DNA from: Gilliamella sp. wkB171 | GTDB lineage: Bacteria > Pseudomonadota > Gammaproteobacteria > Enterobacterales > Orbaceae | Reading direction: 5' to 3' | Length of the DNA stretch: 64,000 bases | NCBI RefSeq assembly: GCF_001693755.1 | Contig: NZ_LYST01000044.1 | Span: forward strand, 1-64,000 | In this document: piece after piece, positions 6,567-52,032 of the stretch | How the letters are laid out: every line of letters begins with the position of its first letter | Position numbering within the stretch: the stretch's first letter is position 1 | The notes under the pieces: model-generated | Databases searched by the model: none | What the model was told of the DNA's origin: nothing | Seen by the model: only the letters and a program-made list of their open reading frames with translations | Position numbers and translations under genes: made by a program

Positions 6567-6604
6567 GCCCCGTCGATTTCAACCGCCTATTTTTCATGTT
6601 CCTT

Positions 6605-6639
6605 GCTTTCAATGGGTTGCGGTTGCCCCGACAGAAAGC
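6605..6639 (+). promoter_or_regulatory. S6:S18-binding leader motif of rpsF mRNA
   Basis: A two-part hairpin: outer stem GCTTTC (6605-6610) with GAAAGC (6634-6639), inner stem GGG (6614-6616) with CCC (6626-6628), and an unpaired CCGACA stretch on the 3' side. A conserved CCG in an asymmetric bulge just before rpsF is the known recognition element by which the S6:S18 complex represses its own operon. Position, 24 bases before the rpsF start, fits. The assignment is by eye. Confidence 0.65.
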
Positions 6640-6662
6640 TGATTAATCCGTAGGGAGCGATA

Positions 6663-7046
6663 ATGCGTCATTACGAAATTGTATTTATGGTTCACCCAGA
6701 TCAAAGTGAACAAGTACCTGGTATGATTGAACGTTATACTGGTACATTAACCACTGATGGTGGAAAAATCCATCGTTTAGAAGATTGGGGTCGTCGCCAA
6801 TTAGCCTATCCTATCGAAAAACTGCATAAAGCACACTATGTGTTAATGAATGTAGAAGCTACTCAAGAAGCAGTAAATGAACTTGAAGATAACTTCCGTT
6901 TTAATGATGCAGTAATTCGCAGTTTAATTATGCGTACAAAACACGCTGTAACTGAAACTTCACCTATGTTAAAAGCTAAAGACGAGCGTCGTAACGCTGA
7001 AGAAGATTTTAGCGATGTAAACATGGATGATGATTCCGAAGAATAA
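6663..7046 (+). CDS. rpsF: 30S ribosomal protein S6
   Basis: 127 residues, beginning [20 protein letters not shown] and containing [20 protein letters not shown], both diagnostic for S6. It has an acidic C-terminal tail (DDDSEE), like E. coli S6, which receives added glutamates from RimK. S6 pairs with S18 on the platform of the small subunit. First gene of rpsF-priB-rpsR-rplI; its 3' end overlaps priB by 20 bases. The start has the ribosome-binding site TAGGGAGCG just upstream. Confidence 0.98.
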
Positions 7047-49887: not shown

Positions 49888-49915
49888 TTGACTGAAATAA
49901 GACGTGCCTTATAAT
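49888..49915 (+). promoter_or_regulatory. Promoter of the tRNA-Val/Lys operon
   Basis: TTGACT at 49888-49893 and a perfect TATAAT at 49910-49915 with a 16-base spacer, 18 bases before the first tRNA. A strong consensus promoter, fitting a stable RNA operon; the following bases are GCACA, without a clear GC-rich discriminator. Confidence 0.85.
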
Positions 49916-49932
49916 GCACATCCACACGGTAA

Positions 49933-50008
49933 GGGTGATTAGCTCAGTTGGGAGAGCACCTCCCTTACAAGGAGGGGGTCACTGGTTCGAACCCGGTATC
50001 ACCCACCA
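49933..50008 (+). tRNA. valT: tRNA-Val (TAC), copy 1
   Basis: 76 bases including CCA. Acceptor GGGTGAT/ATCACCC, D-arm AGCTCAGTTGGGAGAGC, anticodon loop CTTACAA with anticodon TAC, T-arm GGTTCGAA. Differs from E. coli tRNA-Val mainly in the T-stem. Confidence 0.97.
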
Positions 50009-50043: not shown

Positions 50044-50119
50044 GGGTGATTAGCTCAGTTGGGAGAGCACCTCCCTTACAAGGAGGGGGTCACTGGTTCG
50101 AACCCGGTATCACCCACCA
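50044..50119 (+). tRNA. valU: tRNA-Val (TAC), copy 2
   Basis: 76 bases, identical to copy 1. The 35-base spacers on either side are unrelated, so only the tRNA itself is duplicated. Confidence 0.97.
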
Positions 50120-50139: not shown

Positions 50140-50215
50140 GGGTTGTTAGCTCAGTCGGTAGAGCAGCGGACTTTTAATCCGTTTGTCGAGCGTTCGAATC
50201 GCTCACGACCCACCA
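50140..50215 (+). tRNA. lysT: tRNA-Lys (TTT)
   Basis: 76 bases with CCA. Acceptor GGGTTGT/ACGACCC, D-arm AGCTCAGTCGGTAGAGC, anticodon loop CTTTTAA (TTT), T-arm GTTCGAA. The val-val-lys cluster resembles the mixed Val/Lys operons of E. coli. Its last 15 bases plus ATTTT occur again 168 bases downstream. Confidence 0.97.
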
Positions 50216-50417
50216 TTTTATCCAACTAAATCAAATCAAAAAAAACAAACCTCATAAAAAAGTAACGCGATGAGAACGCCAGCGTTCGACAAATTTGTCT
50301 GGAACAAATTTGAACAACACGCAGTGTTGGCCCGAAGGGGTGAGGCACACGATGTGCCGAATAATCATGCTCACGACCCACCATTTTCGTTACACTCAGT
50401 TAAATCAAAAAAACAAT
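50201..50417 (+). repeat. Hairpin-rich repeat carrying a copy of the tRNA-Lys 3' end
   Basis: GCTCACGACCCACCATTTT at 50201-50219 (end of tRNA-Lys) is repeated exactly at 50369-50387, 168 bases away; the AT-rich stretch after it (TAAATCAAA..AACAA) is also partly repeated. Between lie four hairpins: GAACGC/GCGTTC (50274-50287), GACAAA/TTTGTC (50288-50299), CAACAC/GTGTTG (50315-50329) and GGCACA/TGTGCC (50344-50358). The arrangement is like the rtT repeats of E. coli tyrT, where a ~178-base unit carries a 19-base copy of the tRNA-Tyr end. No protein gene is likely in 50216-50532. Confidence 0.75.
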
Positions 50418-50532: not shown

Positions 50533-51234
50533 ATGAAAAGAATTCTTGTAGCAGGATTAATAACATTGGCATTACTAACCGGTTGCGAGTCATCAACACG
50601 AACTAGTTTTTATAATGATCCGGACATTCTTTATAAAAAGGCAACAACATTAAATGATGCTGATGCACAATTTGCTTTAGGTTGTAAATATTTTTGGGCA
50701 GATGATCCTAATTATAAACAGGATTATGTTGAGGCTAGAAAATGGTATGAAGAAGCAGCCAAGCAAGGTAATGTACCTGCACTAAATAATTTAGGGATAA
50801 TATATGCTCAAGGAAAAGGTGTAAAGCCTGATTACAAAAAGGCGATTAAGTATTTTGAACAAGCTGCACAAAGTAATTTCCCTAATTCACAAAGATATTT
50901 AGGATACATTTATTGGCAAGGGCTAGGTGGTATTCCTAAGGACATAGATAAAGCTAAAATGTGGTTTGAAAAAGGAGCAAATCAAGGAGATGGTAAATCT
51001 ATAGCCGGATTAGCTACAATTTATATACTCAATGATAAAAACTACCCTGCCGGATTAAAACTGCTCAAGGACGCGTTAAAAGACAATAAGCCAGAAGTAC
51101 AGACATTAATGGGAGCATTATATTATAATGGCACAGCCGTTCCCAAAAATATAAACGAAGCTAGAAAGTATTTCGACTTAGCCTGTAAAAATGGATTTCA
51201 GAAAGGCTGTGAACTATTAAAAGATATAAAATAA
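50533..51234 (+). CDS. Sel1-repeat lipoprotein
   Basis: 233 residues. Lipoprotein signal with LLTGC (Cys near 18). About five Sel1 repeats follow (36-residue helix pairs): ALGCKYFWADD.., EARKWYEEAAKQGNVPALNN, KAIKYFEQAAQSNFPNSQRY, KAKMWFEKGANQGDGKSIAG and ARKYFDLACKNGFQKGCELL. Sel1 proteins are scaffolds for protein contacts; the partner is unknown. AAGG before the ATG. Some Cys residues (near 51, 220, 227) could form disulfides if periplasmic. Confidence 0.88.
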   Translation: MKRILVAGLITLALLTGCESSTRTSFYNDPDILYKKATTLNDADAQFALGCKYFWADDPNYKQDYVEARKWYEEAAKQGNVPALNNLGIIYAQGKGVKPDYKKAIKYFEQAAQSNFPNSQRYLGYIYWQGLGGIPKDIDKAKMWFEKGANQGDGKSIAGLATIYILNDKNYPAGLKLLKDALKDNKPEVQTLMGALYYNGTAVPKNINEARKYFDLACKNGFQKGCELLKDIK

Positions 51235-51417: not shown

Positions 51418-52032
51418 ATGCTAAGGTTAGGTGCTAAATTATTTTTGCTTTTATGTTTTAGTATGGTTGTCGATGCCGAGCAACAAACTTTTTTCGATTT
51501 TAATCATGAATATCAAAAAGCAACAGAACAAAATGATGCCAATGTCCAATATCATTTGGGCGTTATGTATGCCAATGGCACGCAGACCAATAAACGCCAA
51601 TTCAAAGGCATTGAACAAGGAATTGATGAACAAGCCGAAACACAATCGCAACCAGATTATATTAAAGCTAAGGAGTGGTTTGAAAAGGCAGCCAATCAAG
51701 GCCATGCTAATGCACAACACCAATTAGCCGTTCTTTATTATAATGGACAAGGAACCAAACAAAATTATCAAGAAGGAATAAAGTGGGACACAAAAGCTGC
51801 TAACCAAGGCGATCCTATTGCTCAATATACTTTGGCAACACTTTATTATCAGGGAAAGGGTGTAAAACAAAATTATTTTAAAGCAAAACAGTGGTTTGCT
51901 AAAGCTGCAGAACAAAACTACGCTGATGCTAAAGATCATTTAGCAATCGCATCAAAAAAAGTCGCTGCAATAATAGCTTCACAACAAGCTAACAAAAAAC
52001 AAAAAAGTACTGTTGATTGTGGTTGCGACTAA
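51418..52032 (+). CDS. Secreted Sel1-repeat protein
   Basis: 204 residues. Signal peptide (about 1-20, LFLLLCFSMVVDA). Sel1 repeats: VQYHLGVMYANGTQT, a 25-residue insertion rich in Gln/Glu, AKEWFEKAANQGHANAQHQL, LYYNGQGTKQNYQEGIKWDT, QYTLATLYYQGKGVKQNYFK and AKQWFAKAAEQNYADAKDHL. It ends in an unusual CGCD tail. AGGA before the ATG. Related to its upstream neighbour but not a recent copy. Likely periplasmic. Confidence 0.85.
   Translation: MLRLGAKLFLLLCFSMVVDAEQQTFFDFNHEYQKATEQNDANVQYHLGVMYANGTQTNKRQFKGIEQGIDEQAETQSQPDYIKAKEWFEKAANQGHANAQHQLAVLYYNGQGTKQNYQEGIKWDTKAANQGDPIAQYTLATLYYQGKGVKQNYFKAKQWFAKAAEQNYADAKDHLAIASKKVAAIIASQQANKKQKSTVDCGCD

Follow-up and report, generated by a model that had tools for sequence, protein, structure and literature searches.

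An RtT-homologous repeat unit behind tRNA-Lys in Gilliamella, and tails that follow the local tRNA across Enterobacterales

The window analyzed here (the whole 64-kb stretch of DNA from Gilliamella sp. wkB171) holds a tRNA-Val-Val-Lys operon, the last gene of which is followed by a structured repeat unit (Table 1). The probable promoter of this operon matches 11 of 12 consensus positions; since promoter-like sites across the region are found at shuffle level (3 sites against 3.2 expected), the call rests on its position ahead of the tRNAs. Past the CCA end of tRNA-Lys, an AT-rich leader runs into a core of hairpins and then into a tail, such that GCTCACGACCCACCATTTT (50201-50219; 15 bases of the tRNA-Lys end, then four T's) is matched exactly at 50369-50387. 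The first-pass annotation had picked out this 19-base copy correctly, and had placed 168 bases between the two copies; that figure holds as the start-to-start period, the spacing itself being 149 nt. A second direct repeat (50225-50244 and 50394-50413) indicates that the leader restarts past the second tail, which suggests one complete unit followed by the start of a truncated second.

The minimum-energy fold of the unit (-41.6 kcal/mol, z -2.15; matched in energy by 5 of 200 shuffled sequences) consists of five local hairpins plus outer stems, and not the four hairpins that had been counted at first. Within H1, AGCGTTCGA at 50281-50289 copies part of the 5' half of the tRNA T-arm. Most RtT units form an outer stem with their tail, and this stem occurs in 91.7% of cells of an 18-row Lys-type alignment; in the window unit it is weak (-5.9 kcal/mol, equaled by 13 of 35 other tails).

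Table 1. Features of the tRNA-Lys locus (window positions) and RtT units behind tRNA-Pro elsewhere in the same genome (genome:contig:positions).
Feature	Position	Strand	Remarks
Probable promoter of tRNA-Val-Val-Lys operon	49888..49915	+	TTGACT, 16 nt, TATAAT
tRNA-Val(UAC)	49933..50008	+	
tRNA-Val(UAC), second copy	50044..50119	+	
tRNA-Lys(UUU), anchor gene	50140..50215	+	3' end = first tail copy
Leader of repeat unit	50216..50259	+	AT-rich trailer past CCA
Repeat unit, core and tail	50260..50383	+	Match to R1 (Lys-type model) of 137.3 bits, its own sequence being among R1's 18 members
Hairpin H1	50274..50287	+	From fold; overlaps T-arm copy
Hairpin H2	50290..50312	+	From fold; loop TCTGGAA, with GGA
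Hairpin H3	50315..50329	+	From fold
Hairpin H4	50331..50339	+	From fold; CCC GAA GGG
Hairpin H5	50344..50358	+	From fold; loop CGA (GGA in many relatives)
Tail	50369..50387	+	Exact copy of tRNA-Lys 3' end plus TTTT
Second leader start (putative truncated second unit)	50394..50413	+	85% like 50225-50244
tRNA-Pro RtT units, L057	G000:C43:579407-579697		Beyond a terminator
tRNA-Pro RtT unit, L059	G000:C55:93801-93925		Beyond a terminator

Two ORFs directly downstream (50533-51234 and 51418-52032) carry, by eye, Sel1-like repeats, and ORFs resembling them begin behind the arrays of two other loci (L007 and L014, also by eye). Elsewhere in the window, an RpsF leader (6582-6665) scores above its gathering score.

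The same unit lies in the same place in genus relatives (at up to 90% identity over tRNA plus unit, several in tandem), which excludes a chance origin of the repeat. The search with tRNA plus unit took in 60 genomes, 35 of them Gilliamella including the window's own; matches behind tRNA-Lys fall mostly in the Val-Lys operon, with some genomes (G006, G015, G028) also having them at another, solitary tRNA-Lys. In 9 of 30 Gilliamella genomes, tRNA-Lys is followed by one or more further exact copies of its 12 3'-terminal nucleotides (a count over fetched loci, 5 of the 35 having no fetched tRNA-Lys locus and both loci not being fetched in every genome). Array size ranges from one to at least nine units, the contig with nine ending inside the array, and several genomes appear by eye to hold decayed units or none. 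The check in close relatives proposed in the first-pass annotation thus bears out conservation in the genus, but a patchy one. Distinct Gilliamella units are closer to each other within arrays (identity 0.967) than between genomes (0.878). A 24-codon peptide frame (MRT..AFDKFV..) was also considered as the conserved element and rejected: it ends as such in 18 of 25 start-bearing units, and the other seven, the window's included, deviate through stops or frame shifts, with one that reads on for three further codons, so it is the hairpins, not the frame, that seem to be kept.

RtT repeats are familiar chiefly from a single tRNA operon of E. coli. The Rfam model of this family (RF00391) matches the window unit at 50253-50379, on the same strand and in the same register as the repeat, with 30.0 bits; this is below the curated cut-off of 45 bits, but the alignment spans positions 1-130 of the model and the unit carries the tRNA tail. 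Five of six loci scanned with RF00391 have units, scoring 21.7-37.1 bits among the matches listed (none above cut-off), with full-length matches in units of five loci; at L014, three of its five units are among those matches. In the reverse direction, R1, a covariance model built from 18 of 33 distinct Lys-type units (two members coming from a sister genus), recovers units at other loci from the RtT search. Two of these (L061; 24.9 and 29.0 bits) belong to the tyrT operon of E. coli, where one falls within rttR and the other in the interval from tyrT to tyrV. The wkB171 genome itself holds three RtT units above cut-off (80.2-86.5 bits) behind two tRNA-Pro(UGG) genes; the outermost tails of these units are degenerate (14/19 and 12/19). 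As judged by these alignments the unit is a divergent RtT homologue, a relative by descent, and by Rfam's rule not a member.

The parallel with E. coli rtT drawn at first is therefore correct and closer than was claimed, RF00391 matching at full length and R1 returning the tyrT units. The accompanying description of an unrelated sequence finds no support in an alignment over all 130 positions, sub-cut-off though it is; nor does the proposal of a separate class of repeat unrelated to rtT, which we rejected in view of that alignment, the reciprocal tyrT matches and the cut-off-level RtT units in the same genome. Whether such units follow other tRNA operons had been put forward as a check, and they do, behind tRNA-Pro in this genome and behind several tRNA types across the order. 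RtT repeats have likewise been said to derive from other tRNA operons too (PMC4986893).

RF00391 was searched against 247 genomes of Enterobacterales, giving matches in 56, above cut-off in 34. We analyzed 142 units among the matches listed (leaving out seven Lys-type hits from five Gilliamella genomes, which include the window's unit and had been studied apart). A tRNA or tmRNA lies upstream on the same strand within 1000 nt in 127 of the 142, and 94 of these 127 end in a tail that matches their own gene at 17 or more of its last 19 nucleotides; 33 do not, some of the tails being degenerate. Over the last 16 nucleotides, tails match their own tRNA at 14.52, against 9.49 for tRNAs of other amino acids, and the own tRNA alone ranks first in 104 of 126 cases. 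The units with at least 17/19 divide into Ser 28, Lys 19, Tyr 17, Arg 16, Pro 10, Glu 3 and Gln 1, and the tail of a tmRNA-following unit (L131, G210:C15:126756-126893) matches the tmRNA 3' end at 16/19. Four units with a 16/16 Lys tail, for which tRNA-Val is the nearest recognized gene, belong to an intervening tRNA-Lys (as read from the printed sequences of three). Some of the 15 units with no upstream gene sit at contig ends; several of the 15 have a Ser, Lys or Arg tail, and others no recognizable tail.

At the level of sequence, then, the tail follows the local tRNA, and homology, anatomy, conservation and array variation stand on the same footing. We found no description of this tail rule in the portion of the literature on RtT-type repeats within our search, most subscription papers lying outside it. 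Its occurrence behind Ser, Lys, Tyr, Arg, Pro, Glu and Gln tRNAs (and, at 16/19, tmRNA) makes such units a general feature of tRNA loci in the order, no longer a curiosity. Two other links to the tRNA were tried as general rules and rejected. An inverted T-arm copy at the unit 5' end is seen in Tyr, Lys and Pro units, but the own tRNA alone ranks first in no more than 41 of 126 cases and the majority of Arg units lack such a copy (when a sense copy of the T-arm 5' half is scored instead, the own tRNA takes first place alone in 37 of 126). Covariation of the outer stem with the tail fared similarly: of 85 distinct units, 79 form a stronger stem with their own tail than with other tails on average, yet in only 25 is the own tail strictly the strongest, with no advantage in Arg units and a weak stem in Gilliamella Lys units. 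Further R1 matches near tRNAs comprise L237 and L239 (sister genera, behind tRNA-Val-Val-Lys), L241 (tRNA-Glu), L242 (tRNA-Arg-CCT) and four with tRNA-Asp nearby (L229, L249, L257, L265).

The relationship between units is informative as to how they are maintained. Comparing unit bodies (the unit minus 5' arm and tail) from the 94 units with a good tail, identity is 0.942 for the same genome and tRNA type, 0.858 for the same genus and type, and 0.716 for the same family and type; between tRNA types it is 0.653 within one genome, about the level found between families (0.638-0.641; 0.638 for another family and another tRNA). This low cross-type identity within a genome implies that units seem not to pass between tRNA types, transfer of that kind being unsupported by the body identities, and are homogenized per type. 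Array size also varies outside Gilliamella: 4680 of 5426 E. coli genomes match the rttR unit, at 1 to 9 places each (median 2), the remaining 746 giving no match at the search sensitivity used, and the rtT RNA is described as a 175-bp variable-number tandem repeat differing between two Salmonella serovars (PMC2658671).

The simplest account of both homogenization and array variation would be recombination among identical tails, the tRNA gene included. We hold it on balance probable that the unit is a tRNA-anchored, RtT-homologous tandem repeat whose tail is kept by recombination with the tRNA gene, its hairpins being mainly DNA palindromes and any RNA role secondary. The tRNA gene would itself be one member of the tandem array, and units would be gained, lost and homogenized through unequal recombination and gene conversion of their tails with the tRNA end; the tail would stay identical because the tRNA gene belongs to the array.

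A tail of this sort invites a second explanation, namely that it is an att-site duplication, making the unit the remnant or landing pad of an element integrated at the T-loop of tRNA-Lys. The block of identity, which runs from the T-loop to the CCA end, is reminiscent of att duplications. Phage matches to the tRNA-Lys region include Haemophilus phages HP1, HP2 and S2; in S2 and HP1 the stretch with the attP annotation shares 88.8% identity with the window across tRNA-Lys and the next 12 nt (query positions 1-88), which marks this tRNA type as an integrase target. The same matches count against integration of the unit, in that no phage record in the collection searched covers 80% of the query and the best 20 of 216 matching records reach only the tRNA plus at most 12 nt; phage carriage of the unit was accordingly rejected, the matches listed being to the tRNA region only. 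The copies enclose 149 nt and not an integrase gene, no clean insertion or empty site was found at the solitary tRNA-Lys locus (where several loci hold decayed units, by eye), and homogenization per tRNA with no sharing between tRNA types is unlike an active mobile unit. We regard an integration origin as quite improbable.

Returning to recombination at tRNA ends as the favored reading, we asked of the hairpins whether they are kept as DNA or as RNA. In an alignment of 106 R1 matches (A2; 101 distinct), 35 of 36 pairs have double-sided changes, with 787 compensatory cells against 228.5 after shuffling, the fit to R1 raising these pairing counts. Of the non-Watson-Crick cells in H2-H5, 27 of 103 are G-U, compared with 44 of 57 when 93 tRNAs of these loci are scored over their acceptor and T stems (Fisher p 7e-10, although cells are not independent and misalignment inflates mismatches). 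Watson-Crick compensation with little G-U points to palindromes maintained in DNA, for which quasipalindrome correction may be one route.

The position of terminators bears on the same question. By our own scan, an intrinsic terminator lies between tRNA and core in 50 of 95 first units, which places the unit outside the main transcript unless there is read-through; with the scarcity of G-U pairs, this favors upkeep at the DNA level. The terminator precedes the core in Pro (10/10), Ser (25/30), Lys (9/16), Arg-ACG (3/14) and Val-GAC (2/2) units and in that behind tmRNA, and is absent in Tyr (0/12), Val-UAC (0/5, these being units of intervening tRNA-Lys), Glu (0/3), Gln (0/1) and Arg-UCU (0/1). 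The leaders of the window (50216-50259, two separate scans), of E. coli tyrV and of four further Gilliamella loci gave no terminator by scan. That 50 of the 95 loci carry a terminator here, and that two ORFs follow the window unit, would suit a tandem terminator or processing spacer, each unit repeating the tRNA trailer with a terminator or U-run so that the array insulates downstream genes; the terminator-free leaders of the window, the four Gilliamella loci and tyrV run counter to this, as does the conserved order of hairpins, which it leaves unexplained, and we consider it highly improbable.

An RNA role is favored, against a pure DNA reading, by published observations: Northern signals for RtT-family small RNAs in Actinobacillus (PMC4986893), reported cold induction of an RtT sRNA in Thioalkalivibrio (PMC8092127), and an RNA tandem-GA motif with covariation support reported for RtT (PMC7657543). 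At the window locus, where no terminator intervenes, the unit would be co-transcribed with tRNA-Val-Val-Lys and might then be cut off as a small structured RNA during tRNA 3' end formation. The hairpins would nonetheless be upheld as palindromes mainly at the DNA level, and any cellular role of the putative released RNA would be secondary.

Should such a role exist, the hairpin loops hint at one form of it, in which units released from the tRNA transcript titrate CsrA through GGA loops, so that tRNA transcription sets the level of the sponge and arrays raise the dose. GGA occurs in the loops of the 106 R1 matches 97 times in H2 and 79 times in H5, as against 0 in H3, 6 in H4 and 2 in H1. Because R1 itself contains the H2 loop, the units found with RF00391 provide the fairer test: their 125 distinct bodies hold 67 long perfect hairpins, with GGA in 22 and TCC in 0, a restriction to one strand that suggests a nucleic-acid-binding protein and possibly an RNA function. 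In Gilliamella Lys units, which are closely related sequences, GGA is present in 41 of 152 predicted loops, compared with 15.3 after shuffling of loop letters. Around the H5 loop, CA(N)GGATG agrees with the CsrA consensus RUACARGGAUGU (PMC4347634), in which GGA lies in the hairpin loop and is preceded by ACA. The wkB171 genome encodes CsrA (91.4 bits), with no match to CsrB or CsrC above cut-off; TwoAYGGAY, for which CsrA binding has been proposed (PMC4333381), gives a sub-cut-off match to one portion of a dispersed relative element.

Set against this, RF00391 units sorted by tRNA type have no clear excess of GGA loops (Tyr 6 against 4.8 shuffled, Lys 5 against 4.0, Ser 11 against 6.8), and an excess in the loops of all RtT units was not found. 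The window unit has a single GGA loop (H2), with CGA in H5; G-U pairs are scarce, and a terminator precedes half of the family's first units. Titration of CsrA is in our estimation possible, if rather doubtful.

Relatives of the hairpins also occur away from tRNAs. Among the best matches listed from an R1 search (E no higher than 0.001; at most 14 candidates scored per genome), 92 of the 247 genomes are represented, with tRNA-linked and unlinked copies alike. We fetched 60 seemingly unlinked loci: 42 lack a tRNA in the 0.5-3.1 kb stretch and 18 have one, so "dispersed" is not valid for every R1 match. The wkB171 genome has two weak matches with no tRNA in the stretch, L209 (G000:C53:24901-25014) and L210 (G000:C55:133858-133968), and a sub-cut-off TwoAYGGAY match adjoins the former (in L003). 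Several of L211-L214, L217-L220 and L231-L236, from Gilliamella relatives, belong to a larger dispersed palindromic element whose four-hairpin cassette occupies, as judged by eye, either of two internal positions. L215 (G009:C99) has two cassette copies inside what looks by eye like an Rhs-type gene, and in L222, L223, L224 and L225 (G233, G143) the cassette sits, again by eye, within a MITE-like repeat with terminal inverted repeats. These loci allow a broader proposal, that RtT units are the tRNA-anchored form of a widespread four-hairpin cassette, the GGA form of which binds CsrA and couples tRNA transcription to CsrA activity, with array length setting the dose and recombination keeping the tail; as a whole we judge this proposal unlikely.

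The strong parts of the picture are the homology, the tail rule and homogenization per tRNA. Two separable hypotheses follow, tRNA-anchored recombination of DNA or a CsrA-binding RNA with GGA loops, and since array length changes fast (from none found to 9 places among E. coli genomes), either can be tested in laboratory strains.

Among known systems, RNAs of the CsrB/TwoAYGGAY type share with the unit GGA in hairpin loops; they differ in that CsrB/CsrC-type RNAs have several such loops, whereas the unit has two conserved ones at most and only one in the window, and scans with these families gave no match in the window unit. The consensus of AaHKsRNA22 (RF02902) has by eye the same H2-H5 layout, and scores 19.1 bits against the window unit, below its cut-off of 39.8. 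Of Arrc20 and Arrc21 of Actinobacillus, which we group with AaHKsRNA22, Arrc21 is an expressed RNA of the RtT family beside a tRNA-Lys gene, and differs in that its start is described as lying upstream of such a gene (PMC4986893). BIME/REP-type repeats are likewise dispersed strings of hairpins, and published reports assign rtT-like sequences to BIMEs (PMC2965389) and list rttR among REP-containing sRNAs (PMC12306157); the unit differs from them in being bound to a tRNA tail. The tRNA-Pro units of the same genome (on C43 and C55) resemble the window unit in their T-arm-derived hairpin followed by a hairpin string, and in an exact tail copy between the two C43 units, but score above cut-off, have a terminator between tRNA and core and lack a GGA loop in H2. 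The RtT/rttR units of E. coli tyrT also follow a tRNA and end in a copy of its 3' end, have the same order of hairpins and are matched by models in both directions; the window unit departs from them in its Lys rather than Tyr anchor, its sub-cut-off score, its long H2 with a GGA loop and its weak outer stem.
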